This document shows, in pieces, positions 2,814-21,644 of a stretch of 64,000 bases of DNA (its first letter is position 1; each line of letters opens with the position of its first letter). The notes under the pieces are model-generated. The model ran no database searches and was not told where the DNA came from. It saw only the letters and a program-made list of their open reading frames with translations. This DNA comes from Algorimicrobium algoritergicola (GTDB taxonomy: Bacteria > Bacteroidota > Bacteroidia > Flavobacteriales > Flavobacteriaceae): the NCBI RefSeq assembly GCF_008086165.1, contig NZ_VSKL01000004.1:62001-126000 (forward strand). The letters are read 5' to 3'. The translations under genes were made by a program, and so were the position numbers.

Positions 2814-2873
2814 AATAAATTTGGATGTATGGAGGTAATCTGTAAATATAATACCTTTTGTGTTTATCTTCAT

Positions 2874-2881
2874 TAAATTTG
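2874..2881 (+). promoter_or_regulatory. Putative Bacteroidota -7 promoter box for the Nudix gene
   Basis: TAAATTTG fits the TAnnTTTG consensus exactly and lies 26 bases before the ATG at 2908. No TTG at the ideal -33 spacing was seen, so this is a motif match only. Confidence 0.4.
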
Positions 2882-2907
2882 CACCTAGTTCGAAAACCAA
2901 TTAGTGC

Positions 2908-3459: not shown

Positions 3460-3486
3460 GTCCCAATTTTTATTTACTTTTCAACC

Positions 3487-4158: not shown

Positions 4159-4169
4159 TAAAATCTAAA

Positions 4170-4190
4170 AACCGTTTGAACAAAACGGTT
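4170..4190. other. Hairpin between prsW-like gene and biotin carrier gene
   Basis: AACCGTTT (4170-4177) pairs perfectly with AAACGGTT (4183-4190) across a five-base loop. No T tract follows, so it is not a clear intrinsic terminator. TTTG at 4175-4178 inside the left arm is spaced 21 bases from a TATATTTA box (4200-4207), so the hairpin may overlap a promoter. Confidence 0.45.
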
Positions 4191-4207
4191 CATATTCCTT
4201 ATATTTA
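4175..4207 (+). promoter_or_regulatory. Putative promoter of the acyl-CoA carboxylase operon
   Basis: TTTG at 4175-4178, a 21-base spacer, then TATATTTA at 4200-4207 resemble the Bacteroidota -33 TTTG / -7 TAnnTTTG pair, with one mismatch in the last base of the -7 box. The ATG of the biotin carrier gene is 19 bases downstream. Confidence 0.4.
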
Positions 4208-4226
4208 CACTTCTAAAATTAAATCA

Positions 4227-4712
4227 ATGAGTCAAACTTACCGTACAAAAGTTAACAACATCTACGATTTCGATCTACAACAGGAGTCTGTTGAAGCACT
4301 TGACAGTATTAAAGAAAGTGCCAACAACTATCATATATTAAGCAAAAACAAATCGTATAAAGCTGAAATTTTACAAAGTAATTTTAATGCGAAACAATAT
4401 CAAATAAAAATTAATGGCACCATGTATCAAATTGCCATTGAAGATTATTTAGATGTACTTATAAAAGAGTTAGGTTTCGAAATTGGTGCTTCTAAACAAG
4501 TGAACGATATTAAAGCACCTATGCCAGGATTGATTTTGGATATAGCGGTAAAAGTAGGACAAGAAGTACATGAAGATGATACCTTACTTATTTTGGAAGC
4601 CATGAAAATGGAAAACGTGATTACATCACCTAGAAGCGGTGTCATAAAATCGATTTCCGTAAATCAAGGAGATGCCGTTGATAAAAATCAACTATTAATT
4701 GAATTTGAATAA
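4227..4712 (+). CDS. Biotin carboxyl carrier subunit of acyl-CoA carboxylase
   Basis: 161 residues from the ATG at 4227; a TTG at 4176 would add 17 residues that lie in the hairpin region and is unlikely. The C-terminal biotinyl/lipoyl domain (about 90-161) has APMPGLIL and EAMKMEN; the Lys of MKM (about residue 127) is the biotinylation site. A less conserved N-terminal region (1-85) probably contacts the carboxylase. It carries CO2 from the biotin carboxylase to the carboxyltransferase encoded just downstream. The three-gene set differs from the usual accB/accC of fatty acid synthesis and is more like propionyl-CoA carboxylase. Confidence 0.9.
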   Translation: MSQTYRTKVNNIYDFDLQQESVEALDSIKESANNYHILSKNKSYKAEILQSNFNAKQYQIKINGTMYQIAIEDYLDVLIKELGFEIGASKQVNDIKAPMPGLILDIAVKVGQEVHEDDTLLILEAMKMENVITSPRSGVIKSISVNQGDAVDKNQLLIEFE

Positions 4713-4819
4713 AATTTAAGGCGTACACGTTATTCGCTTGAAAAAAGAATTATCCCTATAGGGAACACATAATAAAAAATAAGATTCCTGTTACCACAGG
4801 AACGATAATAAATTTATCG

Positions 4820-6262
4820 ATAAAAAAAATACTAATTGCAAATCGTGGTGAAATTGCTATTCGTGTCATGCGAACAGCAAAAAAAATGGGCATTAAAACG
4901 GTTGCTGTTTATTCAACTATAGACCGGAATGCACCACACGTAAAATATGCAGACGAAGCTGTTTTAATAGGTGAAGCACCTTCTAACCAATCCTATTTAT
5001 TAGGTGACAAAATTATTGAAGTTGCAAAAAGCCTTGATGTAGATGCTATTCACCCAGGGTATGGATTTCTTTCGGAAAATGCAGAATTCGCTGAATCATG
5101 TGAAGCTAATAACATCATTTTTATTGGCCCAAAATCTAAAGCCATAAAAGTTATGGGTAGTAAATTAGCCGCTAAAGAAGCTGTGAAACACTACAACATT
5201 CCTATGGTTCCTGGAACCGAAGAAGCTATAACGGATATTCCTGAAGCCAAAAAAATAGCTAAAAAAATCGGGTTTCCCATTCTAATTAAAGCCTCTGCTG
5301 GTGGTGGTGGAAAAGGTATGCGTATTGTTGAAAAAGAAGCAGATTTCGAGTCGCAAATGAATCGTGCTATTAGTGAAGCCACGTCTGCTTTTGGTGATGG
5401 TTCCGTATTTATTGAAAAGTATGTTACCTCACCTCGCCATATTGAAATTCAGATTATGGCAGATGCACATGGAAATATTATTCATCTGTTTGAGCGCGAA
5501 TGTAGTATTCAACGTCGTCATCAAAAAGTGGTGGAAGAAGCACCTTCATCCGTCTTATCCCCTGAATTACGCCATGAAATGGGTGAAGCAGCTATAAAAG
5601 TTGCCAAGGCTTGTGATTATCTTGGCGCGGGAACTGTTGAATTTCTATTGGATGACGATCATAATTTCTATTTTCTAGAAATGAATACACGGTTGCAAGT
5701 AGAACATCCGGTTACCGAATTAATCACAGATACCGATTTAGTGGAATTACAAATTCGTGTAGCGCGAGGAGAAGTTTTACCAATCAATCAAACGGATTTA
5801 AAAATAACCGGTCACGCATTAGAATTACGTGTCTATGCTGAAGATCCTTTAAACGATTTTTTACCTAGCGTTGGAAATCTTGAAGTTTATAAATTACCTG
5901 TTGGCAGAAACATTCGTGTTGACAACGGTTTTGAAGAAGGTATGGATATTCCAATTTATTATGATCCCATGCTCTCTAAACTCATTACCTACGGCAAAAC
6001 GCGTGAAGAAGCTATAGAGCTCATGATTTCTGCCATTGCAGATTATCAAATTGAAGGTATAGAAACAACTTTGCCTTTTGGAACGTTTGTTTGCAAACAT
6101 GAAGCGTTTCGTTCTGGAAATTTCGATACGCATTTTGTAAAAAACTATTATTCGCCAGAAGCACTTAAGGAAAGCCAAGAAGCTGAAGCAAAAATTGCTG
6201 CAATGATTGCCGTGAAACATTATTTGGAAGAACAAAAATTATTGCGATTACCCGTTAAATAG
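4820..6262 (+). CDS. Biotin carboxylase subunit of acyl-CoA carboxylase, start codon atypical
   Basis: ATP-dependent carboxylation of biotin. The first ATG (4868, MRTAKKMG) lies inside the conserved N-terminal motif; the frame upstream encodes KKILIANRGEIAIRV, which belongs to every biotin carboxylase. Between the previous gene's stop and 4868 there is no in-frame ATG, GTG or TTG; ATA at 4820 is where the family's Met is expected. Other motifs: GGGGKGMR (ATP grasp), HIEIQIMAD, ERECSIQRRHQK, EMNTRLQVEHPVTE. Length from 4820 is 480 residues, normal for the family. The coordinates follow homology, not a standard start codon. Confidence 0.88.
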   Translation: MKKILIANRGEIAIRVMRTAKKMGIKTVAVYSTIDRNAPHVKYADEAVLIGEAPSNQSYLLGDKIIEVAKSLDVDAIHPGYGFLSENAEFAESCEANNIIFIGPKSKAIKVMGSKLAAKEAVKHYNIPMVPGTEEAITDIPEAKKIAKKIGFPILIKASAGGGGKGMRIVEKEADFESQMNRAISEATSAFGDGSVFIEKYVTSPRHIEIQIMADAHGNIIHLFERECSIQRRHQKVVEEAPSSVLSPELRHEMGEAAIKVAKACDYLGAGTVEFLLDDDHNFYFLEMNTRLQVEHPVTELITDTDLVELQIRVARGEVLPINQTDLKITGHALELRVYAEDPLNDFLPSVGNLEVYKLPVGRNIRVDNGFEEGMDIPIYYDPMLSKLITYGKTREEAIELMISAIADYQIEGIETTLPFGTFVCKHEAFRSGNFDTHFVKNYYSPEALKESQEAEAKIAAMIAVKHYLEEQKLLRLPVK

Positions 6263-8058: not shown

Positions 8059-8103
8059 AAGCACATAATGATTATCTTTAATAGACTCATTATGTGCTTT
8101 TTT
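8059..8103 (+). terminator. Strong intrinsic terminator ending the carboxylase operon, abutting the permease start
   Basis: A perfect 13-bp stem, AAGCACATAATGA (8059-8071) with TCATTATGTGCTT (8087-8099), a 15-base loop and six Ts at 8098-8103. The ATG of the permease follows at 8104 with no gap, so this hairpin is either the end of the upstream operon or part of the permease leader. Confidence 0.85.
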
Positions 8104-9834
8104 ATGAAAAAACGTTTAAACCAATTGGCTGCAACTGCTATTTGTGGAAACGATATCAGTTCATCTTGTTTATATGTTTCAGCACTAGCCATTGTTTATG
8201 CTGGACAATATGCTTGGATTTCTCTACTAATTGTTGCGTTAATTCTCTTTTTATTTCGGAAAATCTACGGCGAAGTTGTTGGTGCTTTACCATTAAATGG
8301 TGGTGCTTACAATGCCTTACTGAATACAACTAAAAAATCGACCGCCTCATTTGCTGCAGCGCTTACCGTTTTATCTTATATGGCAACTGCGGTTATTTCT
8401 GCCAGTGAATCGGTTAAATATGCACACAGTCTTTGGACTGGTATCCCTATAATTTACAGCACCATTGGATTGTTGTCCCTATTTATGACTATTGTTATTT
8501 TGGGTATTGGCGAATCATCTAAAGTTGCGATCGTCATTTTTATTTTTCATTTAACATCGCTAACCATATTATGTGCCTTTTGTGGTATTTATTTATTTCA
8601 AAATGGAATGGACAACCTGTTTGCCAATTTTAAAAATCCCATTGAAGGTAGTATAACTACGGCCTTATTTTTTGGTTTTGCAGCTGCCATGTTAGGGATT
8701 AGTGGTTTTGAAAGTTCCGCCAACTATGTTGAAGAGCAGAAAGCTGGTGTATTTCCTAAAACGTTACGCAATATGTGGATTATTGTTACCGTTTTCAATC
8801 CGTTAATAGCCTTTTTAGCTTTAGCCATTATACCTATTGCAACTATTGGCAACCACGAAGAAACGTTACTGTCCTATTTAGGTCAAACAGCTGGTGGAAA
8901 TTGGTTGTTTTACGTTATTTCCATTGACGCTGTACTGGTATTAAGTGGAGCGGTTTTAACCTCTTTCGTGGGTGTTGGCGGTTTGGTAGAACGTATGGCT
9001 TTAGATCGTATTTTACCAAAGTTTCTTCTTAAGCGAAATAAAAGCGGAAGTTCTTATATTATTTTTATCAGTTTCTTTATACTATGTGTGACCATATTAA
9101 TTATTACTCAAGGGAATTTAAAAGCTTTAGCCGGTGTTTATACCATTGCGTTTTTAAGTGTCATGATTCTATTTGCTATTGGCAACATTCTATTGAAAAT
9201 AAATAGAAAAAATTTACCAAGACCTGAAAAAGCAAGTGTAGGCGCTCTAATTTTAGCTATGGCAGGCGTTCTTTTGGCGCTGATTGGAAACATTGTTTTA
9301 AATCCACCTTACTTAATTATTTTCATGGAATACTTAATTCCTACTTTATTAGTAGTCGGATTTATGTTGTTTCGGATTAAAATATTGAGAGGGTTTTTAC
9401 AATTTTTAAAATATATAATACCCTCCAAGCTACCACTTTTTGAAAAATTAAACAACAAAATCCTACTGACCATTCATCATATTAATAATCAAGAATTTGT
9501 ATTTTTCACAAACCATGATGACGTCTCTACTTTAAATAAAGTATTGCAATATATTCAGAAAAATGAACATACAAAACGCCTGAAAATTGTAACCGTTTTG
9601 AAGCCTGATTATGTTATACCTAAAAATTTACAAAATGATATTTCTGTTCTAGATCGCGCTTATCCTGAAATTCATATTGATTTTATAATAGAAGAAGGGC
9701 ACTTTAACCCCGATAAGATTAGGGAATTATCGAAAAAATACAATATCCCAATTAATTTTATGTTTATCGGTTCGCCAGGTGAAACTTTTCCGTATAAAAT
9801 TCAAGATTTAGGTGATGTTCGATTAATAATTTAA
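8104..9834 (+). CDS. APC-family amino acid permease with C-terminal soluble domain
   Basis: 576 residues from the ATG at 8104 (MKKRLNQLAATAICGNDISS); an ATG at 8068 lies inside the terminator stem. About 12 hydrophobic helices fill residues 15-425. AICGNDISSSCLY in helix 1 and ALPLNGGAYNALL in the following loop are typical of the APC superfamily, and GISGFESSANYVEEQ is a conserved cytoplasmic motif. Residues about 430-576 are hydrophilic (FVFFTNHDDVSTLNKVLQ and onward) and look like an alpha/beta regulatory domain similar in outline to universal-stress or TrkA-type domains, but the family was not identified. Substrate unknown. Confidence 0.85.
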   Translation: MKKRLNQLAATAICGNDISSSCLYVSALAIVYAGQYAWISLLIVALILFLFRKIYGEVVGALPLNGGAYNALLNTTKKSTASFAAALTVLSYMATAVISASESVKYAHSLWTGIPIIYSTIGLLSLFMTIVILGIGESSKVAIVIFIFHLTSLTILCAFCGIYLFQNGMDNLFANFKNPIEGSITTALFFGFAAAMLGISGFESSANYVEEQKAGVFPKTLRNMWIIVTVFNPLIAFLALAIIPIATIGNHEETLLSYLGQTAGGNWLFYVISIDAVLVLSGAVLTSFVGVGGLVERMALDRILPKFLLKRNKSGSSYIIFISFFILCVTILIITQGNLKALAGVYTIAFLSVMILFAIGNILLKINRKNLPRPEKASVGALILAMAGVLLALIGNIVLNPPYLIIFMEYLIPTLLVVGFMLFRIKILRGFLQFLKYIIPSKLPLFEKLNNKILLTIHHINNQEFVFFTNHDDVSTLNKVLQYIQKNEHTKRLKIVTVLKPDYVIPKNLQNDISVLDRAYPEIHIDFIIEEGHFNPDKIRELSKKYNIPINFMFIGSPGETFPYKIQDLGDVRLII

Positions 9835-9849
9835 TTCAAAACCAAGTTA

Positions 9850-9880
9850 ATTGGTGTGTTGATAGTCCCGATTCACCAAT
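9850..9880 (+). terminator. Weak hairpin after the permease gene
   Basis: ATTGGTG (9850-9856) pairs with CACCAAT (9874-9880), 16 bases past the permease stop. The T tract is poor, so termination is uncertain. The rest of the 281-base gap to 10115 holds AT-rich sequence and a possible TAAATTTA -7 box at 10033-10040, with no gene. Confidence 0.35.
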
Positions 9881-10115
9881 AAATTCAAAACCCTTTTAAG
9901 CGCTAATAATCAGTGTTTTAAACTCCATTTTCAGCTGTCGTTTGAAGCCTTAAAAAACCTCATGGCATAAAACTTGTATGCTAAAACATCAAAGCTTTCT
10001 ATCGATTGTCTTTTAAAAATGAATTATTTAATTAAATTTATATGAATTTATTAGTTGTTAGTCCCAACTTTCAACCGCTAACACCTTAAAAATCATATAT
10101 AAAACTAAACTATTT

Positions 10116-11528
10116 ATGAAGCCATTTTTATCAGTTATGATGCTCCTATTGTCCGTTTTTTCAATAGCGCATGCTCAAGAAAAATACCGCGTAATCTATG
10201 ATTATTCTACAGATGAAATTACCTACTACCACTTAGATAAGTACAATAAGGTAGATGATACATTAATGAAACCCAGATTTAAGCGAAACAGTCTAGTGGA
10301 AATGAAACTTAAAAATGTAAATCCATTTGCTGTTGACATTCAAACTGATGTTAGTGAAGAAGCAATTCATTCTGAATCTGGTGGATTCAATTTCAGTTCG
10401 TTATTAGGTGGTATCAGTTCATTTTCTGGTGGGGATCTTGGTTTAAATGTGGATAATCTACCCATTGATGAAAGCATGTTTAGCAATAAAGTTGCTTCAA
10501 GAGGTGCTGGCGTTTCAAATAAATTTTCCGAACTTAATAAACTATCCTCAAATGTAGATGCTATTAAATCAACATTGATGTCCAATTTGCTGAATCCAAA
10601 TTTAGATAAGGATGCTATTTTGAAGAACGTTAAAAATGCTGCACAAAAAGTTAGCGATTCCCGTGTTAGTGATCCAGATGATAATTTTTATGTGTTTTTA
10701 TCAAATATGAAGCGTGTGGTTAAAGAAGATTCACAAGAATTAGCTTCAGAATTAAATGCTTTAGCAACAGACATTAATGAACAAGCAACTTCAAACACCG
10801 AATTATCTCGTGGCGAATTGGTAGCTCAAAATAATGCATATTCAAACCTAAAAGGCATGCTCAAATCCTTAAACTCCTCTTCAATAAGTACTTCAGAAGA
10901 TTTAAATAAAATAGAAGAATTGTATGCAACCTTGGAAGCTTCATCATTTGAACAAACTTATGATTACTTAATTGAAGCAGATAAAGTGAATATTGAATTA
11001 AAATTTGTTCAAAGTGAATTTTCAAAATCATCTAATGTTGATAATTCGCAAAACACCTTAAAAACTAGGAATTTGAAGTTATTCTCAAAAGGTGGTTTTA
11101 AAATAAACTCGAGTGTTGCGTTAACATTAAACAATTTTGGTGATAATGCTCAAGATTTTTATATAGACGAAAATGGTGTTATTGGTGCAGACGTGAATGA
11201 TTATTTTGTACCAAACTTGAGTACCATGATAAATTTCTATCCAGTAATGGGTGAAAACTTTAATATTGGAGGAAGTTTTGGTTTATCAATTCCTATTACT
11301 GAAGATTTAAAAGGCATCAACTTCTTACTAGGTCCATCCCTGTTTTTTGGCAGTAAAAGTCGTTTGGCACTATCTGGAGGAATTGCTTATGGCCCTGTGA
11401 ATAAACTAACAAATGGTCTTGAGGTAGATCAAACAACCAATATTATAGATATTAGTAATTACACAAAAAACGCCTACGATTTCGGGTATTATTTTGGAAT
11501 TTCCTTCAGTCTTTTCGATTTAAATTAA
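10116..11528 (+). CDS. Exported protein of unknown family with helical N-terminal half and barrel-like C-terminus
   Basis: 470 residues. A clear signal peptide ends at about AHAQ (residue 21). Residues 130-310 are helix-rich and polar. From about 325 the pattern turns into alternating strands (KINSSVALTLNN, GGSFGLSIPI, FLLGPSLFFG, RLALSGGIAYG) and ends YYFGISFSLFDLN, resembling a small outer-membrane barrel. I do not recognise a family. It is the first gene of a tight three-gene block; the caspase-like gene follows 12 bases later. Role inferred only from context: possible outer-membrane partner or target of the adjacent exported proteases. An SRG tripeptide occurs at residue 128-130. Confidence 0.8.
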   Translation: MKPFLSVMMLLLSVFSIAHAQEKYRVIYDYSTDEITYYHLDKYNKVDDTLMKPRFKRNSLVEMKLKNVNPFAVDIQTDVSEEAIHSESGGFNFSSLLGGISSFSGGDLGLNVDNLPIDESMFSNKVASRGAGVSNKFSELNKLSSNVDAIKSTLMSNLLNPNLDKDAILKNVKNAAQKVSDSRVSDPDDNFYVFLSNMKRVVKEDSQELASELNALATDINEQATSNTELSRGELVAQNNAYSNLKGMLKSLNSSSISTSEDLNKIEELYATLEASSFEQTYDYLIEADKVNIELKFVQSEFSKSSNVDNSQNTLKTRNLKLFSKGGFKINSSVALTLNNFGDNAQDFYIDENGVIGADVNDYFVPNLSTMINFYPVMGENFNIGGSFGLSIPITEDLKGINFLLGPSLFFGSKSRLALSGGIAYGPVNKLTNGLEVDQTTNIIDISNYTKNAYDFGYYFGISFSLFDLN

Positions 11529-11540
11529 AACGCTATTCAC

Positions 11541-13514
11541 ATGAAAAAATTAAGCTTAATACTCCTGTTTTTTATTACCATTCAATATAGTTTTGCTGAT
11601 AAACATGCGCTTATTATTGCGGTTGGCGACTATCCTAAAAGCACTGGCTGGAGCTCAATTAGTTCGGTAAATGATGTACCATTAATAAAAGGTGCCTTAT
11701 TAAACCAAGGTTTTTTGGATAAGAATATTATAACACTTATTAACGAGCAAGCTACCAAACAAGGAATTTTAGATGCTTTAGCACTTTTACAATCTCAATT
11801 AAAACCAGGTGACGTGGTAGTGATTCACTATTCAGGACATGGACAGCAAATTTTTGATGATAATGGAGATGAAATTGATGATAAAGACGAAGCGCTTGTT
11901 CCTATTGATGCTTGGGTGCGATACACACATAATTATAAAGGCGAAAATCATTTACGTGATGATGAATTGAATAGCATTATTACCAATTTAAGGAACACAC
12001 TGGGTCTAGACGGTCAATTATTAATGATTTTAGATAGCTGCCATTCTGGATCTGCCACTCGTGGTGGTGTAACACGTGGTGGAGAAGCAACATTTGCTCC
12101 TGAAAATTGGAAAGCCAAAGACCAAGAAGACAGCGCAGGAAGCGCCATGTTGGAGCGTACAAAAGTAAGTGATAATGCGGCACCATTTGTGATGATTTCT
12201 GGAGCTTCGGCAAACGAACTTAATTATGAATATGATGGTGTAGGTTCATTAAGCTATGCGTTCTCTAAAGCCATGAGCGAATTGGGTAGTGATTTTACGT
12301 ATCGCCAATTGTTTTCCAACATTGCGGCCAATATGAATGTCATTTCACCAAAGCAAAAACCAACTATTGAAGGTGATATTGACTACAAATTATTTAAAGG
12401 TGACTATGTAAAACAACAACCCTATTTTGAAGTCACCAAAATTCCTACGTCTACCGTTATACAAATTAATGGTGGAAAATTACAACGTTTATTTAATAAA
12501 ACCACCGTGTTTGTCATGCCAGCTGGAACGACAACCGTTGACGCAAGTAAAGCATTAGCCAAAGGCGAAATTAGTAATGCCAAATTTAATGAATCATTTA
12601 TTAAATTAGATAAATCATTAGCAGATAGAAACGAAAAGAAATATTGGGTGTTTGTTGACAAACCGACCTATGGCGACATTGCTATTAATGTCTATATGCA
12701 ACCTGACACCGATACCGAAATCAAAAAAAGTGTCGCTTTGTTTTTGGACAAAAATGGATTAGGAACTGTTGTAAGTGATACGTTAAAAGCAGATGTTGTT
12801 ATTTCAAAAACCACAAACGGTTATACCTTAAATAACGCCAAAGGTTTGGATTCATTTGATGCTACCGAAAAGCAACGTGGTAGCGATTTAGAAGCAGATT
12901 TAAACAATAAACTGTTTAATTATGCACAAGGCATGTATTTGAAAAAATTAAGTTTAAAAAATTATGATTACGAATTCGATTTTAAACTATTACCTGTGGA
13001 ATATGTTGCTGAAATAGGCGAAGTTGGCGACTTTTTACCAGAAGATAGCTACAATAATTCCGAAGGCATTTTAGAGATAAAACCTGGAGTAGACCATGTA
13101 TTTCTTCAGGTAACCAATAAAAGTAAGCGTTCACTTTACTTTAGCATTATTGAAATTAACAGCAAAGGTGAAATTGCACCATTTATGCCAAGTAGAACTT
13201 GTCGTTTAACTGATGACGACCGGAAGTTAGCACCCGGAAAAACAATGATTTTCAAGGAATGTATTTATAAGTTTGGACCACCTTATGAGCGCCTTATTCT
13301 AAAGGGCTTTGCAACAGATTCGCCTATAAATTTTCAATCTACTGTGGAAACTCGTGGAGAAGGCACACGTAGTGCTAGTAATAATCCGTTAGAAAATTTT
13401 CTAAAAAACAGCTACTCGCAATCACGTGGATCTGAAGGCACCGAAACATCTGGAAACATGGATGGTTATAGTACCGAGTTTGTTTATGAGATAGTGGAAG
13501 AAAAAACTGATTAA
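11541..13514 (+). CDS. Exported caspase-family (C14) protease
   Basis: 657 residues. Signal peptide MKKLSLILLFFITIQYSFA. The p20-like domain covers about 22-280: ALIIAVGDYP, catalytic His100 in HYSGHG, the acidic loop DDNGDEIDDKDEALVPID, and catalytic Cys167 in LDSCHSG. Immediately after Cys167 comes SATRGGVTRGGE, two Arg-Gly sites in the position of the p20-p10 linker that metacaspases cleave (family knowledge; cleavage here is inference). Residues 285-657 form an unrecognised beta-rich extension. Twelve bases follow the previous stop and 11 precede the CHAT gene, so the three are probably co-transcribed. The signal peptide places it outside the cytoplasm, unlike defence-system caspases. Confidence 0.92.
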   Translation: MKKLSLILLFFITIQYSFADKHALIIAVGDYPKSTGWSSISSVNDVPLIKGALLNQGFLDKNIITLINEQATKQGILDALALLQSQLKPGDVVVIHYSGHGQQIFDDNGDEIDDKDEALVPIDAWVRYTHNYKGENHLRDDELNSIITNLRNTLGLDGQLLMILDSCHSGSATRGGVTRGGEATFAPENWKAKDQEDSAGSAMLERTKVSDNAAPFVMISGASANELNYEYDGVGSLSYAFSKAMSELGSDFTYRQLFSNIAANMNVISPKQKPTIEGDIDYKLFKGDYVKQQPYFEVTKIPTSTVIQINGGKLQRLFNKTTVFVMPAGTTTVDASKALAKGEISNAKFNESFIKLDKSLADRNEKKYWVFVDKPTYGDIAINVYMQPDTDTEIKKSVALFLDKNGLGTVVSDTLKADVVISKTTNGYTLNNAKGLDSFDATEKQRGSDLEADLNNKLFNYAQGMYLKKLSLKNYDYEFDFKLLPVEYVAEIGEVGDFLPEDSYNNSEGILEIKPGVDHVFLQVTNKSKRSLYFSIIEINSKGEIAPFMPSRTCRLTDDDRKLAPGKTMIFKECIYKFGPPYERLILKGFATDSPINFQSTVETRGEGTRSASNNPLENFLKNSYSQSRGSEGTETSGNMDGYSTEFVYEIVEEKTD

Positions 13515-13525
13515 TGGTTTAAAAT

Positions 13526-14827
13526 ATGATCATAACAAAACGTTTATATTTAATACCTATTTATTTGTTGAGTTTGGTGGTTAATGCTCAAACTATTGAT
13601 GACCTTATTCAATACAATAAAGAGAATCTAACCGATTTATATGGAAAGAGAGGTGCACCAGCTGATTGGTTGTTTACTGGTCATGTGAATGAAATGTACC
13701 TTATTGATGCCTTAAATAGTTACGAAGATGAAGTAGGTATTATTATATATTCGCATCAAAACAACGAACTTACTATTAGTTTGATAAACAAAAAAGGTAT
13801 ACTCCAATCAGTAAAACATACAATTTCAAAAGATACTATTATAGAACAAGTTAATGATGTTAATCAGTTGTTTTCATCAAATTTAAGCTCTCAAATACCA
13901 TCCTTTCGAGGTTCAATTTCTACAAATCTTAAAAAAAGCACGAAGGTTACTGAAAAAGCATACAGAAATTTAAATACTATACTATTGCCAAACGAATGGC
14001 AGTTAGAAGATTACGATCATCTTATTATTGTTCCAACGCTTAATTTATCAACCTTACCATTCGCTGCATTTAAAATGGGAGAAACATTTTTAATTGATAA
14101 AATGAGTTTTTCCATAGCGCCTAGTCTTTTTGAATTTATGGTATCAACGAACATTAATTATAACGATGCTCAATCAAATAACGATGGTTATAATTGGACA
14201 AATGCTCTATTTGTGGCAAACCCTAAATACCCTAAAACTACGGATTGGCAATTTCCAGATTTACCTGGAACCGTAGAAGAAATCAATTATATTACCAGGT
14301 CTTTGCAACAAGAGACTTTTACGATACTTACGGCTGAAAACGCAACAAAGCACGCGGTAATGGATAATATTTGTAATTATGATTTATTATATTTTGCAAC
14401 ACATGGTATTTCAGATGCAACAAATCCACTAGATAATAGTTTTTTGGTTTTAGCTGAAGGCGAAAACAACACCGCATTTTTAACTGCAAAAGAAATTATG
14501 AATTTGCGGCAAAAATGCATGCTTCAAGCCGACTTGGTGGTATTAAGTGCTTGCCAAACAGGAATTGGCGCATCGCATGATGGTGGCATCATTGGAATGG
14601 CTAGATCATTTCAAATTGCTGGTGCCAATCATGTATTAATGAGTTTGTGGAGTATTAATGATAAGGAAACAGCAACCCTTATGGGATTTTTCTTCGATTT
14701 TCTGAATCAAAGTGGGCGTTTACAACCACATGAAGCTTTACGACAAGCTATTTTGAAATATAAATCAGAAGTTAACAATGATCCAAAATATTGGGCTGCC
14801 TTTTCAATTTTTGGCGTACCATACTAA
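13526..14827 (+). CDS. Exported CHAT-domain protease
   Basis: 433 residues. Signal peptide MIITKRLYLIPIYLLSLVVNAQ. The C-terminal two thirds form a CHAT domain (caspase HetF associated with TPRs; clan CD): LIIVPTLNLSTLPFAAF, LFVANPKYP, LPGTVEEI, catalytic His293 in YFATHG, catalytic Cys343 in LSACQTG, and the terminal ANHVLMSLWSINDKET with YWAAFSIFG. The usual N-terminal TPR array is missing, and residues 25-150 match no repeat I know. Third gene of the block with the barrel-like protein and the C14 protease. Confidence 0.92.
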   Translation: MIITKRLYLIPIYLLSLVVNAQTIDDLIQYNKENLTDLYGKRGAPADWLFTGHVNEMYLIDALNSYEDEVGIIIYSHQNNELTISLINKKGILQSVKHTISKDTIIEQVNDVNQLFSSNLSSQIPSFRGSISTNLKKSTKVTEKAYRNLNTILLPNEWQLEDYDHLIIVPTLNLSTLPFAAFKMGETFLIDKMSFSIAPSLFEFMVSTNINYNDAQSNNDGYNWTNALFVANPKYPKTTDWQFPDLPGTVEEINYITRSLQQETFTILTAENATKHAVMDNICNYDLLYFATHGISDATNPLDNSFLVLAEGENNTAFLTAKEIMNLRQKCMLQADLVVLSACQTGIGASHDGGIIGMARSFQIAGANHVLMSLWSINDKETATLMGFFFDFLNQSGRLQPHEALRQAILKYKSEVNNDPKYWAAFSIFGVPY

Positions 14828-14895
14828 AAATTTATAATGTAAAGAAGATTTAAATTTATGTTTTATCCAATTACATATCTTGATTCATACTAAAT

Positions 14896-17800
14896 CTAAA
14901 ACCCACTAACAACCTCAAAGTCATTTTCAAGATTCTCTTGTCTAGATGTTGGTTTTTGTAAACCATTTGTAAGTTTTTCGACCGTTTTAGAAACGTATTC
15001 TTTAAGTTCGTAAACTGTAATTGTTCCGTTAGCATCTAAATCAGCTTTACGATTTTCAATACCTTCCCGAACCGCAAAGGTAAACGCACCATTTTTCCAA
15101 TCGCTATTTTCTAGAGCATATTCTTTTCCTCCTGATGCTGAAATGACTACGGCTCCATTTCCACGAGATAAATCGGCAAATAGAGATTGCATTAAGGTAT
15201 AACTCGTTTCTAATGGTACTGCAATTGTACTTGTTCCAATAGCACCTTTTGTATTATAAGCTGCTGCTGTTTCTGTTAACTGAACGGTTTCACCTTCAAT
15301 TGTTGGATTTTCAACCACCAATTCCTCATCATCTTGATCTAATGTACCCGAATGACAGGCATCAATAAAAACGAGTTTTTTTCTACTCGGAATCCCATCT
15401 AATAACCATTCTAAATCCGTGTAATTTAATCCGTTTTGTTCTGGGTTTTCAAAATCAATATCATAAGTAGCACAATAGAAATCTTGATTTTCAGCTAGAA
15501 GTCCGTGACCACTAAAACTTAATATTACGGTATCGTCAACTGATGTTTTTTGTAAGGTTTCTTTAAGTTTTAAAATATTGGCTTTGGTAGCGTTTTCATC
15601 CAAATACAAAAATGTTTCCACCGATTCAGATGCTGTTTTAAACATATGCTCTAAATCCAGTGCATCCTTTTTTGCATAAGAAAGATTGTAAGTACTATCT
15701 TGATATTTGGACACACCAATTCCGATAAAATAGGTTTTAGGTTTTTCAGATTGACCATCAAAAAATACGGATTGCGTTAGTTTTAGAGATTGTAATCCTT
15801 TATTATTCGTACACGATATTTGAATGGTATTATTCCCTTGAGATAAGGTAATGACTTGTTCAGCTTGAAAATCATGTAATTTCCCCTCAATAATCTGACC
15901 TTGTTGACCAAAAACTGGCACGCCATTCACCCAAATATCCCAGGAATTTAAGGCATGTTTTTCATCAATAAAAGAAGCTTTAATTTCATAATCTCTGGTT
16001 TTAGAAGTGAATGATAAATTTTTAGTTAATAAATTTATTTGAGGTATTTCATTTTTATTTAAAGCCTCCACATCTACTTTAACTGGTGAATTTACCAAAC
16101 GCTTTTCATATGCTCTTTTATAAAGACTTAAAACATCTTTAGGTAACACATCCATCTGACCTAATACAATATCAGGACGATTAAAGATCATATCAAACTG
16201 TGTAAATGGATAGCCATTTTCTCCTATTAAAAAACCAAACTGATTACTGTTTAGTCCCGACGAACTCATGTAATAACCCGATTGATTAATAGCCATCTGA
16301 TTATCGTCATCAAAAAAGTAATATTGAACAACCTGATCTGAACTTGTGTCAAAAAACGCTAAATAATCGCCACCATCCATAACTATCTTTTTTAAATCTG
16401 GAAATAAAGCTGGTTTGGATGACGTAGATGACGCTCTTGATTGCCAAACCACGGTATTGGTGATTAAATCTATTTGTTTCAGGTAATCTGTTGAATATAA
16501 ATAAAGCATTTGGCCTTCCACGATAAAATCATGATAGTATGCACCCGAATGAACGGTTTTAATTGCCTGAACACCTAATTTAATTGGAACTTCTTTCAGT
16601 TGAAGAATTTCATCATCAGTTTCCGATTGACTGGTTTCCTTAAAGTATAATTTGGTTCCTTCCATGTTAAACCGAACAGCTGAAAAGTATAATTGTTTGA
16701 TGGTATGCGTCCACAATAATTCCCAACTATTCGTATTGAAAACAGATATGGTATTTTGCCATTTACCAGAATCGCCATCAGATATTGCAAAAAACTCACC
16801 CGAATTGGAGACATCCCACTTTAAATCATATTCCGATTTAAATTGCTTGATAGTTTTTCCTGTGTTATCAATAATGGCATAAAACACCTTTTCTTTATGT
16901 CTCATATTGACTAGAAAATACTCGGAATTAGGAAAATAATGATAAACACCTTGGATACTAAAACCCGTCTCTAATGCTGTTAAATGAAATACCTTTTTAT
17001 TCTTAAATCTTAAATCCGCTTTTGTTATTTCCTTGAAGCTTTTGATATCAATTGTTGTTTGAGGATTCTTTAATAGCGTTTTAGTTGGGTCAGCAACAAT
17101 AATAATTTTTTCTTTATAATACCCTTTTCTATAAAAAAGCCATGTTTCTGAACCGGGATTAACTGTCATTAAACAAGACTCACAATTTACAACTGTCGTT
17201 TTTCTGGTTTCAGGATTTAGCAATCTCAAACTATCTAAATTATAGGGATTGTTTTCTTTTTTAGAATAGCCAAAAACATACTGATCGGATACTTTAATCA
17301 GTGTTTTAAAATTTAATAATGGTCCTTGAATCTCACTAAATTCATAGGTGAATTTTCTAGAGTTATAATTATAAATTGCCAAATTATCATATGATGCAAT
17401 AAACTTTTGCTCGCCATAAGAAACGAATAGTTCTTTAGATTTCTGATTTAATATAATTTTCCCAATGGCACCTTTAAAATCTTTTGGACTAATATCAGTT
17501 ATTGTTAAATTTTTAGAGTCTACTTTAACTAATTTACTATATCCATAATTAATAAAAATACTTTCGTCCGTAGAATCTACTTGAATATCATCAACAAGAT
17601 TAGAAGGTAACAATTTTAGAGCGTAGGGATCATTTTGTTCAGCAGGCTCTTGTTCTTGAAAACTAATTTCCTTTTCAAATTTAGGTTTTTTAAGATGTTT
17701 AATAACTATAACTCCCTCTCCTATATCCATTTCGTATTCATTTTTATCCATAGATAAGGCTGAATTCGCGAATAAATAACCATCAGCTGTCAGATGTAAA

Positions 17801-18474
17801 AATCGTGCAGGCTTCTTTCTAAAGAAGTTAATTTCTTGTTGTGTTTCTAAATTATTTTCCAGTAACAAAACGTCGCCTTTATTATTCGAAATAAGAAACT
17901 GATTATTTTTTACGGAATAGGTTATATAAGGAATTTCAAACTCATAAGCATTTTGATAGACTATTGTTTTTGTATTCAAATTATATAGATACAATTTGGA
18001 GTTATTGGTAATATCATAAATTAAACCATTTTCCTTGTCTGGATAAATTTTTGTTGATACTATTAAAAGGGAATCATTCACCACTGCTTTCGCGTGAATA
18101 TACTCGGGATAAACTGTTGTGAAAACCGTATCAGTCTTATTGTTTAAAAGATCGACTTTCAATAAACTATGATTAGTGCTAATAATAAATTTACCGTGAT
18201 TTAATAAGTTTATTTTACCCGAACCAGGACCATTTTCAGAATCGAACCAACGCTCGGCAATCATAATTTTTGATTGATAATCCCATAACATCACAGTAAT
18301 CCCGCCATTAGACTGAATATCACCTATATAGGTCATAAAATGCTTGTCATCTGGACTTATATATAAATTTTGAGTAGCTGAAGTTTTCTGTAAGATTGCT
18401 TTTGCATTCTGCCCATAAAGAAACAAACTAGAAACAGTAAATAGAATAACTAATACGTGGCTTTTTATGGTCAT
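14896..18474 (-). CDS. Exported beta-propeller / caspase-family fusion protein
   Basis: 1192 residues. Signal peptide ending near LFLYGQ. Residues about 30-740 read as repeated WD40/YVTN-like blades (for example HFMTYIGDIQSNGGITVMLWD near the start, and DVSNSGEFFAISDGDSG). About 800-905 is an Ig-like beta segment (KNLSFTSKTRDYEIKASF). The C-terminal caspase domain (about 915-1190) has YFIGIGVSKYQD, catalytic His990 in LSFSGHG and catalytic Cys1040 in FIDACHSG; ADLDANGTITVYEL near the end is EF-hand-like. It converges on the CHAT gene with a 68-base gap and heads away from the lipoprotein gene upstream. Propellers commonly serve as recognition platforms, so it may sense or dock a partner. Confidence 0.92.
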   Translation of the reverse strand: MTIKSHVLVILFTVSSLFLYGQNAKAILQKTSATQNLYISPDDKHFMTYIGDIQSNGGITVMLWDYQSKIMIAERWFDSENGPGSGKINLLNHGKFIISTNHSLLKVDLLNNKTDTVFTTVYPEYIHAKAVVNDSLLIVSTKIYPDKENGLIYDITNNSKLYLYNLNTKTIVYQNAYEFEIPYITYSVKNNQFLISNNKGDVLLLENNLETQQEINFFRKKPARFLHLTADGYLFANSALSMDKNEYEMDIGEGVIVIKHLKKPKFEKEISFQEQEPAEQNDPYALKLLPSNLVDDIQVDSTDESIFINYGYSKLVKVDSKNLTITDISPKDFKGAIGKIILNQKSKELFVSYGEQKFIASYDNLAIYNYNSRKFTYEFSEIQGPLLNFKTLIKVSDQYVFGYSKKENNPYNLDSLRLLNPETRKTTVVNCESCLMTVNPGSETWLFYRKGYYKEKIIIVADPTKTLLKNPQTTIDIKSFKEITKADLRFKNKKVFHLTALETGFSIQGVYHYFPNSEYFLVNMRHKEKVFYAIIDNTGKTIKQFKSEYDLKWDVSNSGEFFAISDGDSGKWQNTISVFNTNSWELLWTHTIKQLYFSAVRFNMEGTKLYFKETSQSETDDEILQLKEVPIKLGVQAIKTVHSGAYYHDFIVEGQMLYLYSTDYLKQIDLITNTVVWQSRASSTSSKPALFPDLKKIVMDGGDYLAFFDTSSDQVVQYYFFDDDNQMAINQSGYYMSSSGLNSNQFGFLIGENGYPFTQFDMIFNRPDIVLGQMDVLPKDVLSLYKRAYEKRLVNSPVKVDVEALNKNEIPQINLLTKNLSFTSKTRDYEIKASFIDEKHALNSWDIWVNGVPVFGQQGQIIEGKLHDFQAEQVITLSQGNNTIQISCTNNKGLQSLKLTQSVFFDGQSEKPKTYFIGIGVSKYQDSTYNLSYAKKDALDLEHMFKTASESVETFLYLDENATKANILKLKETLQKTSVDDTVILSFSGHGLLAENQDFYCATYDIDFENPEQNGLNYTDLEWLLDGIPSRKKLVFIDACHSGTLDQDDEELVVENPTIEGETVQLTETAAAYNTKGAIGTSTIAVPLETSYTLMQSLFADLSRGNGAVVISASGGKEYALENSDWKNGAFTFAVREGIENRKADLDANGTITVYELKEYVSKTVEKLTNGLQKPTSRQENLENDFEVVSGF

Positions 18475-18497
18475 AACGGAATTATTTGCGTGACGTT

Positions 18498-19400
18498 CTA
18501 TTTGGTAATTTTCATAATTGTAGAAGCGCCATCTTTTACAATAGCATCTTTGTTTTTACTTAATATACTTGGTAGCTGATTAATATATTTACTCTTGTTA
18601 CCTTCATATTCCTCCAACTGAACATTTACTTTTAAAACACCATACGTGCTATTATTTGCTATTTCAGAGGTGATAGGAATGTCATAATACCAAGGAGACA
18701 ATATTGGTTTTGTAATTTGATTGTCAGCACCATACTTTAGATTTTTAAAATCGTACTCCTGCTCTATCAAAATCTTTTTCATTGGTGATCCGTCTGTACT
18801 ACGCCATTGTCCTTCAATTGAAATAGAAATACGTGCGTTTAAATTTTCATCGGTGAATACCTTCGTTTTTGAAAAAAACACACGCAAAGCATCAAAACTA
18901 ATCCGAGTTACTCCAGGATTATCAGGGTCACTTATAAAATCTATTTTCGCATAAAAATTTAAGAGGTCATCCTTTTCATCTCGAATCACATCTTTTAATT
19001 CTAAAGCACCTTCGGTTCCACGGCTTTTTGGTAATGCGTTAACATCGCTGGTGATTAGCCGAGTCATATTTGTTTTTTCCTCAACCACCTGTGGTTTGGC
19101 ATATTTAAAAATTTCGATTGATTGGTAGGTTTTTTCTATTTTATCAGAAAAGGTATTATAATAATTGTTTACAGAAATAGATTGTGCGTAGGAACTTGTT
19201 AATTGTTTCGCACTTTGATCTGCCAGATATTTGGCACCAATAAATAATCCTTGAAGTGCTATTTCTACCATGCCACCACGAGATTCCGGTTGTTTTAGGG
19301 ATACAACGAATTCTTCCTCTGCCTTAATATGAGACCGTTGATGCGCGCCACAAGAACTAAATAGAATTGCGACTAAAATAATAGATGTTATATGTTTCAT
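18498..19400 (-). CDS. Lipoprotein of unknown family in the exported-protease cluster
   Basis: 300 residues. MKHITSIILVAILFSSCG is a lipoprotein signal with the acylated Cys at 17. Residues 40-75 contain a Gly-rich, possibly amphipathic segment (GGMVEIALQGLFIGAKY). The C-terminal half is beta-rich. Two SRG tripeptides lie at residues 40-42 and 126-128. No family recognised. It sits between the propeller-caspase gene (23 bases) and the trypsin-ankyrin gene (39 bases), same strand, so probably in one operon and membrane-anchored beside them. Confidence 0.8.
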   Translation of the reverse strand: MKHITSIILVAILFSSCGAHQRSHIKAEEEFVVSLKQPESRGGMVEIALQGLFIGAKYLADQSAKQLTSSYAQSISVNNYYNTFSDKIEKTYQSIEIFKYAKPQVVEEKTNMTRLITSDVNALPKSRGTEGALELKDVIRDEKDDLLNFYAKIDFISDPDNPGVTRISFDALRVFFSKTKVFTDENLNARISISIEGQWRSTDGSPMKKILIEQEYDFKNLKYGADNQITKPILSPWYYDIPITSEIANNSTYGVLKVNVQLEEYEGNKSKYINQLPSILSKNKDAIVKDGASTIMKITK

Positions 19401-19439
19401 AATTTCGAAATAAATTAATTATTGACTTGTGAATAAACA

Positions 19440-20981
19440 TTATAACTTGCCTTTACGCACGTTTTTTAAATATTTATAATTTGATTTAAAATCGGCGTTT
19501 TTTGCTGTTTTTTCAGGATAATCGCCTTCATAATTTTTTTCATCTACCAAAACACCATGTTTAACTAACAGTTGGAGTAAAGCCATATCGCCAATTTGAG
19601 CGGCTAGATGTAACAAATTATTTCCATTTGAATCTTTTACCGTTTTATCAGCTCCGGCATCTAATAAAAGACGAAAGCCTTTTGTGAAATTATTTTTAAC
19701 GGCTAATTGAATCGGTGTTGGAAGATTATCATAAGTAACATCTGGATAAATAGAGTTCTCTAAAAGAATTTTTAACAGATTATCGTCTTGTGAGTCAATA
19801 GCTTCTTTCATGAGTTTATAGCCATCAACAGGACTTAATGCATCGTTAGTCATGGCTAGGATAGACTGTAACATGTCATATTCTTTATTACGAGCCGCAA
19901 GAAGCTCTAGCCTTCCCTGAATATTAGTATAAGTATGGTTATAAATCCAAGAATACGAACTCCAACTGCTAAAACGATCAGCTAATCCGTTTTTTATCGC
20001 GTATTCTAAATTCTCATAGACAGCCATAATTAAAATTTCTCCTGGTAATTTATGAATTTTATGGGCTTGACATCCTGCATTATTTTCTGCAGATGAAAAT
20101 TGAACAGTTTTTACACAGTCGCAATCTGGATCATATTTATAATCGCCAGAATACGTTCCATTACTATATTGTGTGGCTCCACGAACCAAAATACCTTCTA
20201 TAAACCCGTTAGGGTCAAAAACGGGACCGCCAGAATTTCCTGGAAATGCATCAATATCACTTTTAAAAAACTGTTCTTCTTCATTACTGACAACAATGGC
20301 ATTTTCTGAAAATTTTAAGGGTAATCCTGTTGGAGTTCCTATGGTATTAACCCGACTATTTTTTGAAACCTCACCACTTGTTCTAAAACGGTAAGGTGCT
20401 CTTTCGGACTTTCTATCTAGTTTTAGTACGGCATAATCTTGATTGGTGTCATCATCTAAAACTGAAGCTAAAACATCAACCACCTCATACATGTTATTTT
20501 CAGGAACTTCTATGTACTTGTAATATTCATCATACTTTAGCTCATTTGTATAATCAAATACCCAAATCCATCTTTGGGCATCTTCTAGTGTTTTCACACA
20601 ATGTCCAGCGGTAATTAATACATCTGGCGCAATTAAAAATCCTGTACAATTTGCTACTGTTGGTTGATCAAGATACCGAACGTTGGCATCAAAGTTTTCT
20701 GTTTCAAAACGGTCGGTGAGCATTTCGCGTAACGTATAACCAACAAGTTCATTTCCATCAATAACATCTTTGGAGACCATTGCTGCTGTAGCGCGAACAA
20801 AGTCTTTGATGCCATCAGCATCTTTAACTTCTTTTCTATCATCATTTCCAAAAATGCCTCGTGGTGTGGAACCAATTTCTCCAAATGGATATTGGAATGG
20901 TTCGGGTTGATTCTTTTCTTGAGCAAACAGGGTCGTTGAACAGCAAAACAATGCTGAACAAATAAAGATTTTTGTTTTCAT
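19440..20981 (-). CDS. Exported trypsin-like serine protease with C-terminal ankyrin repeats
   Basis: 513 residues from ATG 20981, which gives the signal peptide MKTKIFICSALFCCSTTLFA; an upstream in-frame ATG at 21062 would bury it. The S1-type domain (about 60-300) has a full triad: His127 in LITAGHC, Asp182 in NQDYAVLKLD, Ser250 in FPGNSGGPVFD. Residues about 400-510 form ankyrin repeats (TPIQLAVKNNFTKGFRLLLD, NLLHLAAQIGDMALLQLLVK). Protease and ankyrin domains are joined in one exported chain, an unusual pairing. First gene of the leftward block with the lipoprotein and propeller-caspase. Confidence 0.92.
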   Translation of the reverse strand: MKTKIFICSALFCCSTTLFAQEKNQPEPFQYPFGEIGSTPRGIFGNDDRKEVKDADGIKDFVRATAAMVSKDVIDGNELVGYTLREMLTDRFETENFDANVRYLDQPTVANCTGFLIAPDVLITAGHCVKTLEDAQRWIWVFDYTNELKYDEYYKYIEVPENNMYEVVDVLASVLDDDTNQDYAVLKLDRKSERAPYRFRTSGEVSKNSRVNTIGTPTGLPLKFSENAIVVSNEEEQFFKSDIDAFPGNSGGPVFDPNGFIEGILVRGATQYSNGTYSGDYKYDPDCDCVKTVQFSSAENNAGCQAHKIHKLPGEILIMAVYENLEYAIKNGLADRFSSWSSYSWIYNHTYTNIQGRLELLAARNKEYDMLQSILAMTNDALSPVDGYKLMKEAIDSQDDNLLKILLENSIYPDVTYDNLPTPIQLAVKNNFTKGFRLLLDAGADKTVKDSNGNNLLHLAAQIGDMALLQLLVKHGVLVDEKNYEGDYPEKTAKNADFKSNYKYLKNVRKGKL

Positions 20982-21160: not shown

Positions 21161-21207
21161 ATTTTCTGTGAAATAATTATAATAATTTAGTTTCAGGCCT
21201 AAAACAA

Positions 21208-21241
21208 AACAAGCCATACACTAATGCGTGTATGGCTTGTT
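21208..21241 (-). terminator. Intrinsic terminator of the gdhA operon
   Basis: A perfect 14-bp stem (21208-21221 with 21228-21241) and six-base loop; reading the minus strand, a T-rich run TTTGTTTT follows. It lies 26 bases past the stop of the last gene of the operon. Confidence 0.85.
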
Positions 21242-21266
21242 CAAAAATTAAAATATTAAAAAATTA

Positions 21267-21644
21267 CTACATGAGTATTTTTAAATATACTTCATTCTTA
21301 ATCTTCCGATAACTATCAATATGTTTCACATATTTAGATAGATACGTATCATGTAAATTAATGTAATATACATCACATTCTAAATCATCACATTCATTAT
21401 ACTTTACAATAGATGTTCTATAATTGTATAACTCGTTTAATATGCTTGCGTTTTGTTCAGATTCCTCCAAAAGCAAATCTCGCAACGCTTTGTCATTCAA
21501 TTTATTAGATGCTATTTTCGCTAGCCAATCACTCTCGTCGGTCACGTAACTTAAATGAGAAATCCAAACGTCAAGCTCTTGTGTCCGCTTTACATGAATT
21601 ATTTCTTCATCAGTATCATGATTAAAAAAGGTATTTGATTCCAT
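21267..21644 (-). CDS. Hypothetical protein, 125 aa, translationally coupled to a GreA/GreB-like gene
   Basis: The start codon overlaps the stop of the upstream gene by one base (TAATG), a coupling arrangement. The protein is acidic and helix-rich (HVKRTQELDVWISHLSYVTD, then LRDLLLEESEQNASILNELY), without a signal peptide or membrane segment. Two Cys occur in ECDDLECD. No family recognised. It is the last gene before the operon terminator, downstream of gdhA. Confidence 0.75.
   Translation of the reverse strand: MESNTFFNHDTDEEIIHVKRTQELDVWISHLSYVTDESDWLAKIASNKLNDKALRDLLLEESEQNASILNELYNYRTSIVKYNECDDLECDVYYINLHDTYLSKYVKHIDSYRKIKNEVYLKILM

Follow-up and report, generated by a model that had tools for sequence, protein, structure and literature searches.

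The stretch analysed here (the window) is a segment of 64,000 nucleotides from Algorimicrobium algoritergicola (assembly GCF_008086165.1, contig NZ_VSKL01000004.1), in which six genes, hereafter A to F, occupy positions 10116-20981. A, B, and C lie on the forward strand and D, E, and F on the reverse strand, forming two convergent three-gene blocks with intergenic gaps, in the order A to F, of 12 and 11 bp in the forward block, 68 bp at the convergent junction, and 23 and 39 bp in the reverse block (table 1). The initial annotation of this DNA had described two tight blocks meeting at this junction, a signal peptide or a lipobox on all six products, and complete catalytic residues in B, D, and C (Cys-His) and in F (Ser-His-Asp). 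The open reading frames (ORFs) are found at these places, the leaders are borne out by pattern, and the catalytic residues can be read from the sequence. We describe these apparently exported proteins, the distribution of their genes, and a conserved Arg-Gly motif that they share with other members of related loci.

Table 1. Genes of the locus and positions of the Arg-Gly motif in their products (window coordinates).
Feature	Positions	Strand	Details
A	10116-11528	+	470 amino acids
A site 1, Arg129-Gly130	10500-10505	+	20/20 homologues; flanking columns 0.51 conserved
A site 2, Arg232-Gly233	10809-10814	+	20/20 homologues; flanking columns 0.52 conserved
B	11541-13514	+	657 amino acids
B Arg174-Gly and Arg179-Gly, p20/p10-type linker after the catalytic Cys	12060-12080	+	19/19 and 18/19; flanks conserved 0.87 and 0.83
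B Arg605-Gly, C-terminal tail	13353-13358	+	18/19
B Arg629-Gly, C-terminal tail	13425-13430	+	18/19; flanks 0.49 conserved
C	13526-14827	+	433 amino acids
C Arg42-Gly, near the N-terminus	13649-13654	+	3/4 small CHAT proteins
C Arg128-Gly, before the CHAT domain	13907-13912	+	4/4 small CHAT proteins
Convergent junction C/D	14828-14895		68 bp
D	14896-18474	-	1192 amino acids
D Lys1076-Gly1077, motif position in the caspase linker	15244-15249	-	D-type proteins: Arg-Gly 8/15, Lys-Gly 4/15
E	18498-19400	-	300 amino acids
E Arg127-Gly, site 2	19017-19022	-	14/16
E Arg41-Gly, 24 residues past the lipobox Cys	19275-19280	-	16/16
F	19440-20981	-	513 amino acids from the ATG start at 20981; a TTG start at 21062 is also possible in the ORF list
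F Arg41-Gly42, possible zymogen-activation site	20856-20861	-	16/16; flanks 0.76 conserved

Judged by its sequence, B is an exported metacaspase-type protease with a p20 Cys-His dyad and a p10 part. Its match to Pfam Peptidase_C14 (1.7e-20) covers profile positions 2-225 of 233 and hence includes the p10 part, and its closest PDB relatives are metacaspases (4f6o at 3.5e-19; 7qp0 aligned over profile positions 43-276). The dyad H100/C167 and the acidic residues D45 and D165, which we take to be the S1 pocket residues of metacaspases, are present in 18/18 homologues. D is also a Peptidase_C14 protein (4.8e-17; dyad H990/C1040), with weak propeller matches, and both the His and Cys patterns were found in 9/9 D-type proteins. 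C is an exported small CHAT protein (Pfam CHAT, 8.8e-59; dyad H293/C343). All three PF00656 matches of the source genome are in the locus, two of them in B and D and the third, a weak match, in C. F combines a Trypsin_2 domain (5.7e-17), whose nearest PDB relative is the glutamyl endopeptidase 1p3c (5.9e-06), with C-terminal ankyrin repeats; its triad H127/D182/S250 is invariant in 6/6 homologues and kept at the matching columns in 12/12. Catalytic residues are thus retained in the homologues of B, F, and D, and the loss in most homologues that the initial annotation had considered is not observed. The two remaining products resemble no characterized family. A has no Pfam family above the cut-off, the Pfam scan giving one TCAD2 match below it (E 0.046), and dedicated searches returned no credible Pfam or PDB relative. 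Its sequence can be read as an N-terminal part, a helical middle, and a beta-rich C-terminal part, and we suspect an outer-membrane barrel. E is a lipoprotein (lipobox LFSSC), also with no family above the Pfam cut-off, for which the PDB search yielded nothing credible.

Signal peptides and the lipobox were assigned by sequence pattern throughout. The leaders of A, C, D, and F end in an Ala/Gly-Gln cleavage site, of the type known as the Q-rule and typical of Bacteroidetes (PMC5837995), and that of B is hydrophobic and ends in SFA. Across relatives, a leader was recognized in 107/111 family members; the four others are, as far as can be told, fragments or split ORFs.

We examined the co-occurrence of these genes in several genome sets. 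Among 119 genomes of relatives, the window's own included, matches at E <= 0.001 were obtained in 9 genomes for A, 17 for B, 36 for C, 11 for D, 5 for E, and 48 for F, and the set that is full-size by place and length is smaller (strong A in 7, near full-length F in 6, E in 5). By the match table, 8/296 relatives carry a B of nearly full length. A two-pattern scan with A of a named genome collection returned 19 loci from six genera and several metagenome-assembled genomes, five of which overlap with the relatives set (L089, L090, L101, L105, and L106, from G001, G053, G067, G020, and G054, respectively). One of the 19 loci is in Parapedobacter and the rest are in other genera or in metagenome-assembled genomes; the latter aside, these other genera are presumably all Flavobacteriaceae. 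B directly follows A in 17/19 loci, with only a piece of B in L100, and in the remaining two (L090 and L105) a contig edge lies right behind A. In the other named loci, the side-by-side homologues are 51-61% (A) and 54-64% (B) identical to those of the window. The neighbourhood suggested at first from a single genome is therefore not a chance assembly. E extends this picture, as its profile is present in 12 of the 14 A-holding genomes searched behind the named loci, those of L089, L090, L101, L105, and L106 having been covered with the relatives. Eleven of the 12 have E on the contig of A, on the opposite strand, downstream of A and directed towards the A block, and in the twelfth (G689) the locus is split over contigs. 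Among the relatives, E was found in 5/7 genomes with a strong A.

The position of the other genes is more variable. The order F, DUF900 hydrolase, A, B is found in 7/8 Winogradskyella loci and in L101, the order A, B, F in three Leeuwenhoekiella loci, and the order F, A, B in L095 and L106; in L102 (Winogradskyella), F is reduced to a piece of 97 residues. F belongs to the block of E in Bizionia only (in which the host of the window is counted here) and is, in the other named loci, in the A/B block, not seen, or not placeable, so that its place in the second block finds no support as a general feature. The fuller form of the locus consists of F, the hydrolase, A, B, and a variable array of caspase and CHAT genes, opposed by E, a CHASE2 protein, a small protein of about 258 residues, and a propeller-caspase. 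The forward array contains TPR-CHAT, small CHAT, double-caspase, and caspase-TPR proteins in varying numbers. The CHASE2 and 258-residue proteins lie between E and the array in 10/11 arrays, and a caspase matching the D models is present on the E strand in 7/11. As for arrays with no clear D match, L184 encodes a caspase of the same size that does not match the D models, L173 shows a weak match, and L177 none; in L178 a caspase of 1441 residues is found on the other strand. Three Bizionia genomes share the convergent layout, which represents a reduced form lacking the CHASE2 protein, the small protein, and the hydrolase, with F moved to the E block. In a wider draw of 395 genomes of the class, the A profile matched 10, and in the nine other than that of the window the match was mostly confined to the C-terminal part. 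One of the nine, G309, still has A-, B-, and F-like genes within one stretch. In three other Bacteroidia genomes among them, an A-like protein adjoins a caspase (L146 and L148) or a trypsin-like protein (L149), and the caspase of L148 carries TRGGE after its catalytic Cys. No A was found in plasmids, and the phage search gave a single weak match, to B (26.6% identity over 39% of its length).

Comparison of the same genomic site in close relatives distinguishes a conserved core from exchanged cargo. The locus of G001 (B. echini) and G002 has the same neighbours as that of the window, with A, B, E, and F 84-91% identical and the neighbouring genes 82-98% identical. The D slot of both genomes is occupied by a propeller-caspase of 1484 residues that matches D only over residues 720-1186 (37%), and the C slot by an unrelated caspase-TPR protein of 995 residues instead of the CHAT protein. 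In G003, of the same genus, the whole insert is absent from this site, where 82 bp separate the gene for a 126-residue homologue of the window ORF 21267-21644 from the carboxyltransferase gene that comes next; in G004, the contig stops just past the small gene of the 126-residue type. Profile searches with A, B, and E gave no match in G003, G004, or G005. The adjacent amino-acid permease gene (window 8068-9834) is gone from the G003 site along with the six genes, and may for this reason belong to the same insertion. The exchange of two facing genes within one genus, around a core of such high identity, is a pattern expected of a conflict system.

Side-by-side reading of the proteins revealed a conserved Arg-Gly pair, mostly (S/T)-Arg-Gly, in otherwise variable linkers of locus members (table 1). 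It is located in the linker between caspase p20 and p10, beside CHAT domains, after signal peptides, after the E lipobox, and N-terminal to the F protease domain. Beyond the six genes, it is present at a fixed position of the hydrolase (10/10) and of the TPR-CHAT proteins (14/14, one of these being a short CHAT-caspase protein). The divergent F homologue of G309 retains the Arg but has another residue in place of the Gly. P2 is Ser or Thr at 127/166 sites, in seven families, and motif sites tend to fall in hydrophilic segments, with a median hydropathy percentile of 22 relative to their own protein (n=168). Three further Arg-Gly pairs (F R267 and the second sites of the hydrolase and of D-type proteins) were judged structural and excluded from the motif. 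The 258-residue protein has an Arg-Gly in 14/14 cases, in a conserved context, and this pair is perhaps structural as well; only 2/14 CHASE2 proteins contain any Arg-Gly. The position counts of A, B, F, the hydrolase, and the CHAT and caspase cargo omit duplicates (L065, L070, L072, L078, L089, and L090), loci judged outside the system, and seven unassigned fragments. Those of E, D, the 258-residue protein, and the CHASE2 proteins come from a second count that takes in the later arrays, and its D set of 15 includes one protein (L184_4) added by hand, with no D-model match.

The motif was recognized in the very proteins in which it is counted; only the dipeptide ranking, the CHAT controls, and the later arrays and E set are partly independent of the original observation. 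The frequency counts were made on 24 loci (the window, L091-L107, L062, L063, L064, L073, L074, and L075), some of them from shared genomes (L062 and L073-L075 from G053; L063 and L105 from G020), with omission of L089, a near copy of L064, and of ORFs below 150 residues. Any match to the system models, some of which were built from the same proteins, defines a system protein, and neighbouring ORFs of the same loci form the background. The 117 system proteins contain 302 Arg-Gly pairs, for an expectation of 130 and a maximum of 165 in 200 shuffles, whereas the 120 background ORFs contain 87 for 112 expected; the reverse dipeptide Gly-Arg reaches 0.58 of its expectation in system proteins. The stricter pattern (S/T)RG(S/G/A/E/K) occurs in 70/117 system proteins versus 5/120 background ORFs (5/73 among exported background ORFs). 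In an unbiased ranking of dipeptides, Arg-Gly is the one most often fixed in locally variable stretches (6/10 families), followed by Gly-Ser (3), two of whose three cases continue an Arg-Gly-Ser. The six families are A, the B tail, the hydrolase, large CHAT, small CHAT, and caspase-TPR proteins, or about four unrelated classes, as the ten ranked families include two CHAT families, with sites apparently at the same place, and four with caspase domains. Arg-Gly makes up 7/61 fixed dipeptides in variable stretches versus 8/751 in conserved ones, a contrast for which Fisher values are not true probabilities because proteins within a family are related. The CHAT proteins also allowed a comparison with controls, namely 20 TPR-CHAT proteins, of which 5 belong to the window's genome and 15 to seven further genomes in which the search with A had given no match. 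In a full alignment anchored on the system-protein motif, and including the 14 large CHAT proteins and not the 4 small ones, the position before the CHAT core holds Arg-Gly in 14/14 system proteins versus 1/20 controls; the single control that has it is encoded in the genome of the window and may belong to the system without being linked to the locus. This alignment was preferred to the CHAT start given by domain envelopes, which is unreliable (an Arg-Gly nearby in 2/20 controls and 9/18 system proteins).

These data indicate, with high confidence, a real co-inherited system of exported proteases, and we have moderate confidence that Arg-Gly is its cut site. We estimate at roughly 0.6 the probability that the locus encodes an exported protease-zymogen system in which a metacaspase with a basic P1 preference cuts its partners between Arg and Gly and in which the effectors can be swapped. 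In the proposed scenario, the products would be sent to the periplasm or envelope, where an envelope signal, perhaps received through the block formed by the CHASE2 protein, the small protein, and the lipoprotein, would activate the propeller-caspase D or the metacaspase B. B would then cut itself and its partners. B, or else D, is the candidate for the Arg-Gly cutter because B is metacaspase-like, has kept its dyad and acidic residues, and carries two motif sites in its p20/p10 linker, these last suggesting self-processing; metacaspases and orthocaspases are indeed described as cleaving after basic residues (PMC6426788). Cleavage would set free or activate F at its N-terminus (R41), release E from its lipid anchor (R41), split A into three pieces at its two sites, and detach CHAT as well as caspase domains from the TPR or propeller parts joined to them. 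The swappable effector end would be the variable array. The initial annotation had already suggested a periplasmic or surface cascade, which gains support from the co-occurrence in several genera, the largely kept catalytic residues, and the shared Arg-Gly, and had seen A and E as anchors or substrates, a role that their two conserved motif sites each would fit. Its designation of the trypsin-ankyrin protein F as an initiator is on the contrary unlikely, as the N-terminal motif of F lies where a chymotrypsin-type zymogen would be cut, so that F looks activated rather than initiating.

The likeliest purpose of such a system might be a regulated response at the envelope, such as defence or self-destruction; this is the weakest step of the scenario and one that we hold with low confidence. 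It is suggested by the exchange of genes within a genus, the presence or absence of the locus at one site, and the partial likeness to known immune systems. A more ambitious version, which we regard as tentative and give somewhat less than even odds, is that of a Bacteroidota periplasmic zymogen cascade for envelope defence or self-destruction, in which a receptor block (lipoprotein, CHASE2 protein, small protein, and propeller-caspase) and an effector block (metacaspase, V8-like protease, hydrolase, outer-membrane protein, and the exchangeable CHAT/caspase set) would be wired by a single cut-site code, (S/T)-Arg-Gly, with a logic like that of complement, clotting, or the inflammasome. If true, the motif common to the protease and its partners would provide a directly readable list of candidate substrates, and the cascade, a natural caspase cascade outside the cytoplasm, could be tested by a single point change per protein.

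Several observations weigh against the protease-zymogen system. The motif is unevenly conserved, since the site is found in 6/8 caspase-TPR proteins and, among 7 double caspases, as Arg-Gly in 5 and Lys-Gly in 1; the D of the window itself has Lys-Gly, 3/15 D-type proteins have neither pair, and D-type proteins show no Arg-Gly excess (16 for 13.5 expected). The strict pattern is found in only 1/16 F and 2/10 hydrolases, whose sites read RG(V/I) and mostly DRG. Catalytic patterns are missing from part of the cargo (His in 3/14 and Cys in 1/14 large CHAT proteins, Cys in 2/8 caspase-TPR proteins and 1/7 double caspases), some of the cargo proteins concerned being cut by contig ends. Nor is the gene set constant: L098 and L103 showed no F, E went undetected in 2/14 A-holding genomes and also in G020 and G067 (both 84% complete), and in Flaviramulus (G054/L106) E is divergent beside F, with no convergent layout. 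On the biochemical side, MaOC1, the one characterized orthocaspase in the literature consulted, prefers clusters of basic residues and not Arg-Gly (PMC7935541). The N-terminal stretch of F after Arg41, searched alone against the PDB, gave no match to an S1 protease. Finally, the motif could have a role other than cleavage, and none of the analyses run connects the locus with phage or with stress.

Three alternative explanations were weighed. The proteins might simply share their export and have their sites processed by an Arg-specific housekeeping protease, such as another clan CD enzyme of the secretion pathway, and so be digestive or surface enzymes that depend on maturation, with no cascade. 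The prevalence of leaders among family members would fit this explanation, as would the fact that nothing in the sequences of A, E, and the hydrolase marks them as proteases and that the cutter proposed within the locus is a candidate. We consider it unlikely, given that the motif is enriched in the locus and not in the other exported ORFs found there, that the B linker carries it twice, as self-processing would suggest, and that none of the six proteins has a type IX sorting domain. Less probable still is a docking or modification motif that keeps the proteins together. Recurrence in most parts of the system, and in hydrophilic stretches, would be expected of such a motif too, whereas its sites coincide with zymogen cut places (the p20/p10 linker, the segment preceding the S1 domain, the vicinity of CHAT, and the gap between lipid anchor and body) and some D proteins have Lys in place of Arg, a substitution compatible with a basic P1. 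A neighbourhood assembled by chance or under loose selection, with no function common to its exported proteases, to which the swapping of C and D in G001 and G002 and the absence of the locus from the G003 site might have pointed, is very improbable in view of the identity of A, B, E, and F in G001 and G002, the adjacency of A and B elsewhere, the similar wider layout, and the shared motif, and is already refuted for A-B, and largely for E, by the neighbourhood scan.

The protease-zymogen system that we favour has counterparts among known systems, the closest in logic appearing to be canu, the trypsin-pronuclease pairs, the gasdermin-caspase systems, and NTPase conflict systems. As we understand them, gasdermin, CARD-NLR, and NTPase conflict systems are run from inside the cell, and so is canu, which we take to be intracellular together with the trypsin-pronuclease systems. 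In canu and the trypsin-pronuclease antiphage systems, a caspase- or trypsin-like protease cuts a proenzyme and TPR parts occur, as here; they differ in being nuclease systems, and the word 'periplasm' does not appear in the excerpted text (PMC12799240). Canu was rejected as an identification because the Pfam scan detected no MBL family and no nuclease family in the six proteins. In the bacterial gasdermin system, a lytic activity is released when a caspase-like enzyme cleaves its partner between Leu (P1) and Gly (P1'), which hence gives no support for a P1 Arg (PMC9079055). None of the six proteins matches gasdermin, and this system was likewise set aside. NTPase conflict systems resemble the locus by their trypsin- and caspase-like effectors and by neighbourhoods with exchanged effectors (PMC7159879) and differ from it in that the six proteins here are exported; they were rejected in the absence of any MoxR, vWA, STAND, GTPase, or other NTPase match in the six proteins, the arrays of relatives having been scanned in part. 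Trypsin-like parts are also used by the CARD-NLR-like LypABC (PMC13236601). Two further candidates were dismissed: Craspase, as C scores 27 bits against the Csx29 model for a cut-off of 300 and no other Cas family was found among the six, and type IX secretion substrates, as the Pfam scan found no Por_Secre_tail match in the six. PADLOC matches of the six proteins are either weak or explained by caspase, protease, or ankyrin domains that the models have in common with them.

Compared with individual protein families, B is close to metacaspases and orthocaspases by its Cys-His dyad, D45, D165, and its 4f6o match, and departs from them by its export, its long C-terminal extension, and a partner set with a common motif. 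F is likewise nearest, in its catalytic domain, to V8/glutamyl-endopeptidase S1 proteases (1p3c), and differs by its C-terminal ankyrin repeats, its activation site being only proposed. The association of CHASE2 and metacaspase in one system has been described for CHASE2-linked prokaryotic metacaspases, for which a fusion with a cytoplasmic metacaspase was proposed (PMC3501461), whereas separate genes and an exported protease are involved here; the window itself has no CHASE2 gene. Exported caspases as such are not new, since surveys of prokaryotic caspases noted leader-like helices, along with CHASE2 fusions and multi-metacaspase operons in Bacteroidetes (PMC3501461), and periplasmic sensor proteins have been predicted in bacterial caspase-family systems (PMC10907252). 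What appears to be new, within the open PubMed Central papers searched (subscription papers falling mostly outside), is a defined locus with a common motif.

Other observations concern the surroundings of the locus and its possible relatives. Promoter- and terminator-like sites at the locus, scanned against shuffled sequence, are as numerous as expected from shuffling. One of the five terminator-like sites detected is a strong hairpin of 15 pairs at 21207-21242 on the reverse strand, upstream of F and between F and a gene for a 125-residue protein. In the window's own genome, an unlinked TPR-CHAT protein (L110, contig C23 of G000, 2231-5635) has NTRGSE at the system position, and near its gene an exported protein of the beta-lactamase family PF00144 (109-1224) contains SRG; this region may represent another portion of the system, remote from the locus. 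L077 (8418-12398) groups a B-like caspase, a CHASE2 protein, and a relative of the 258-residue protein, with no A within the 20 kb examined. In L067 (9077-13916), a papain-family protease with DUF4384 adjoins a caspase that weakly matches D, both with leaders by pattern. Lastly, a Leeuwenhoekiella array (L180) includes an RHS-repeat/DUF6531 protein (8840-10522) with four Arg-Gly pairs.

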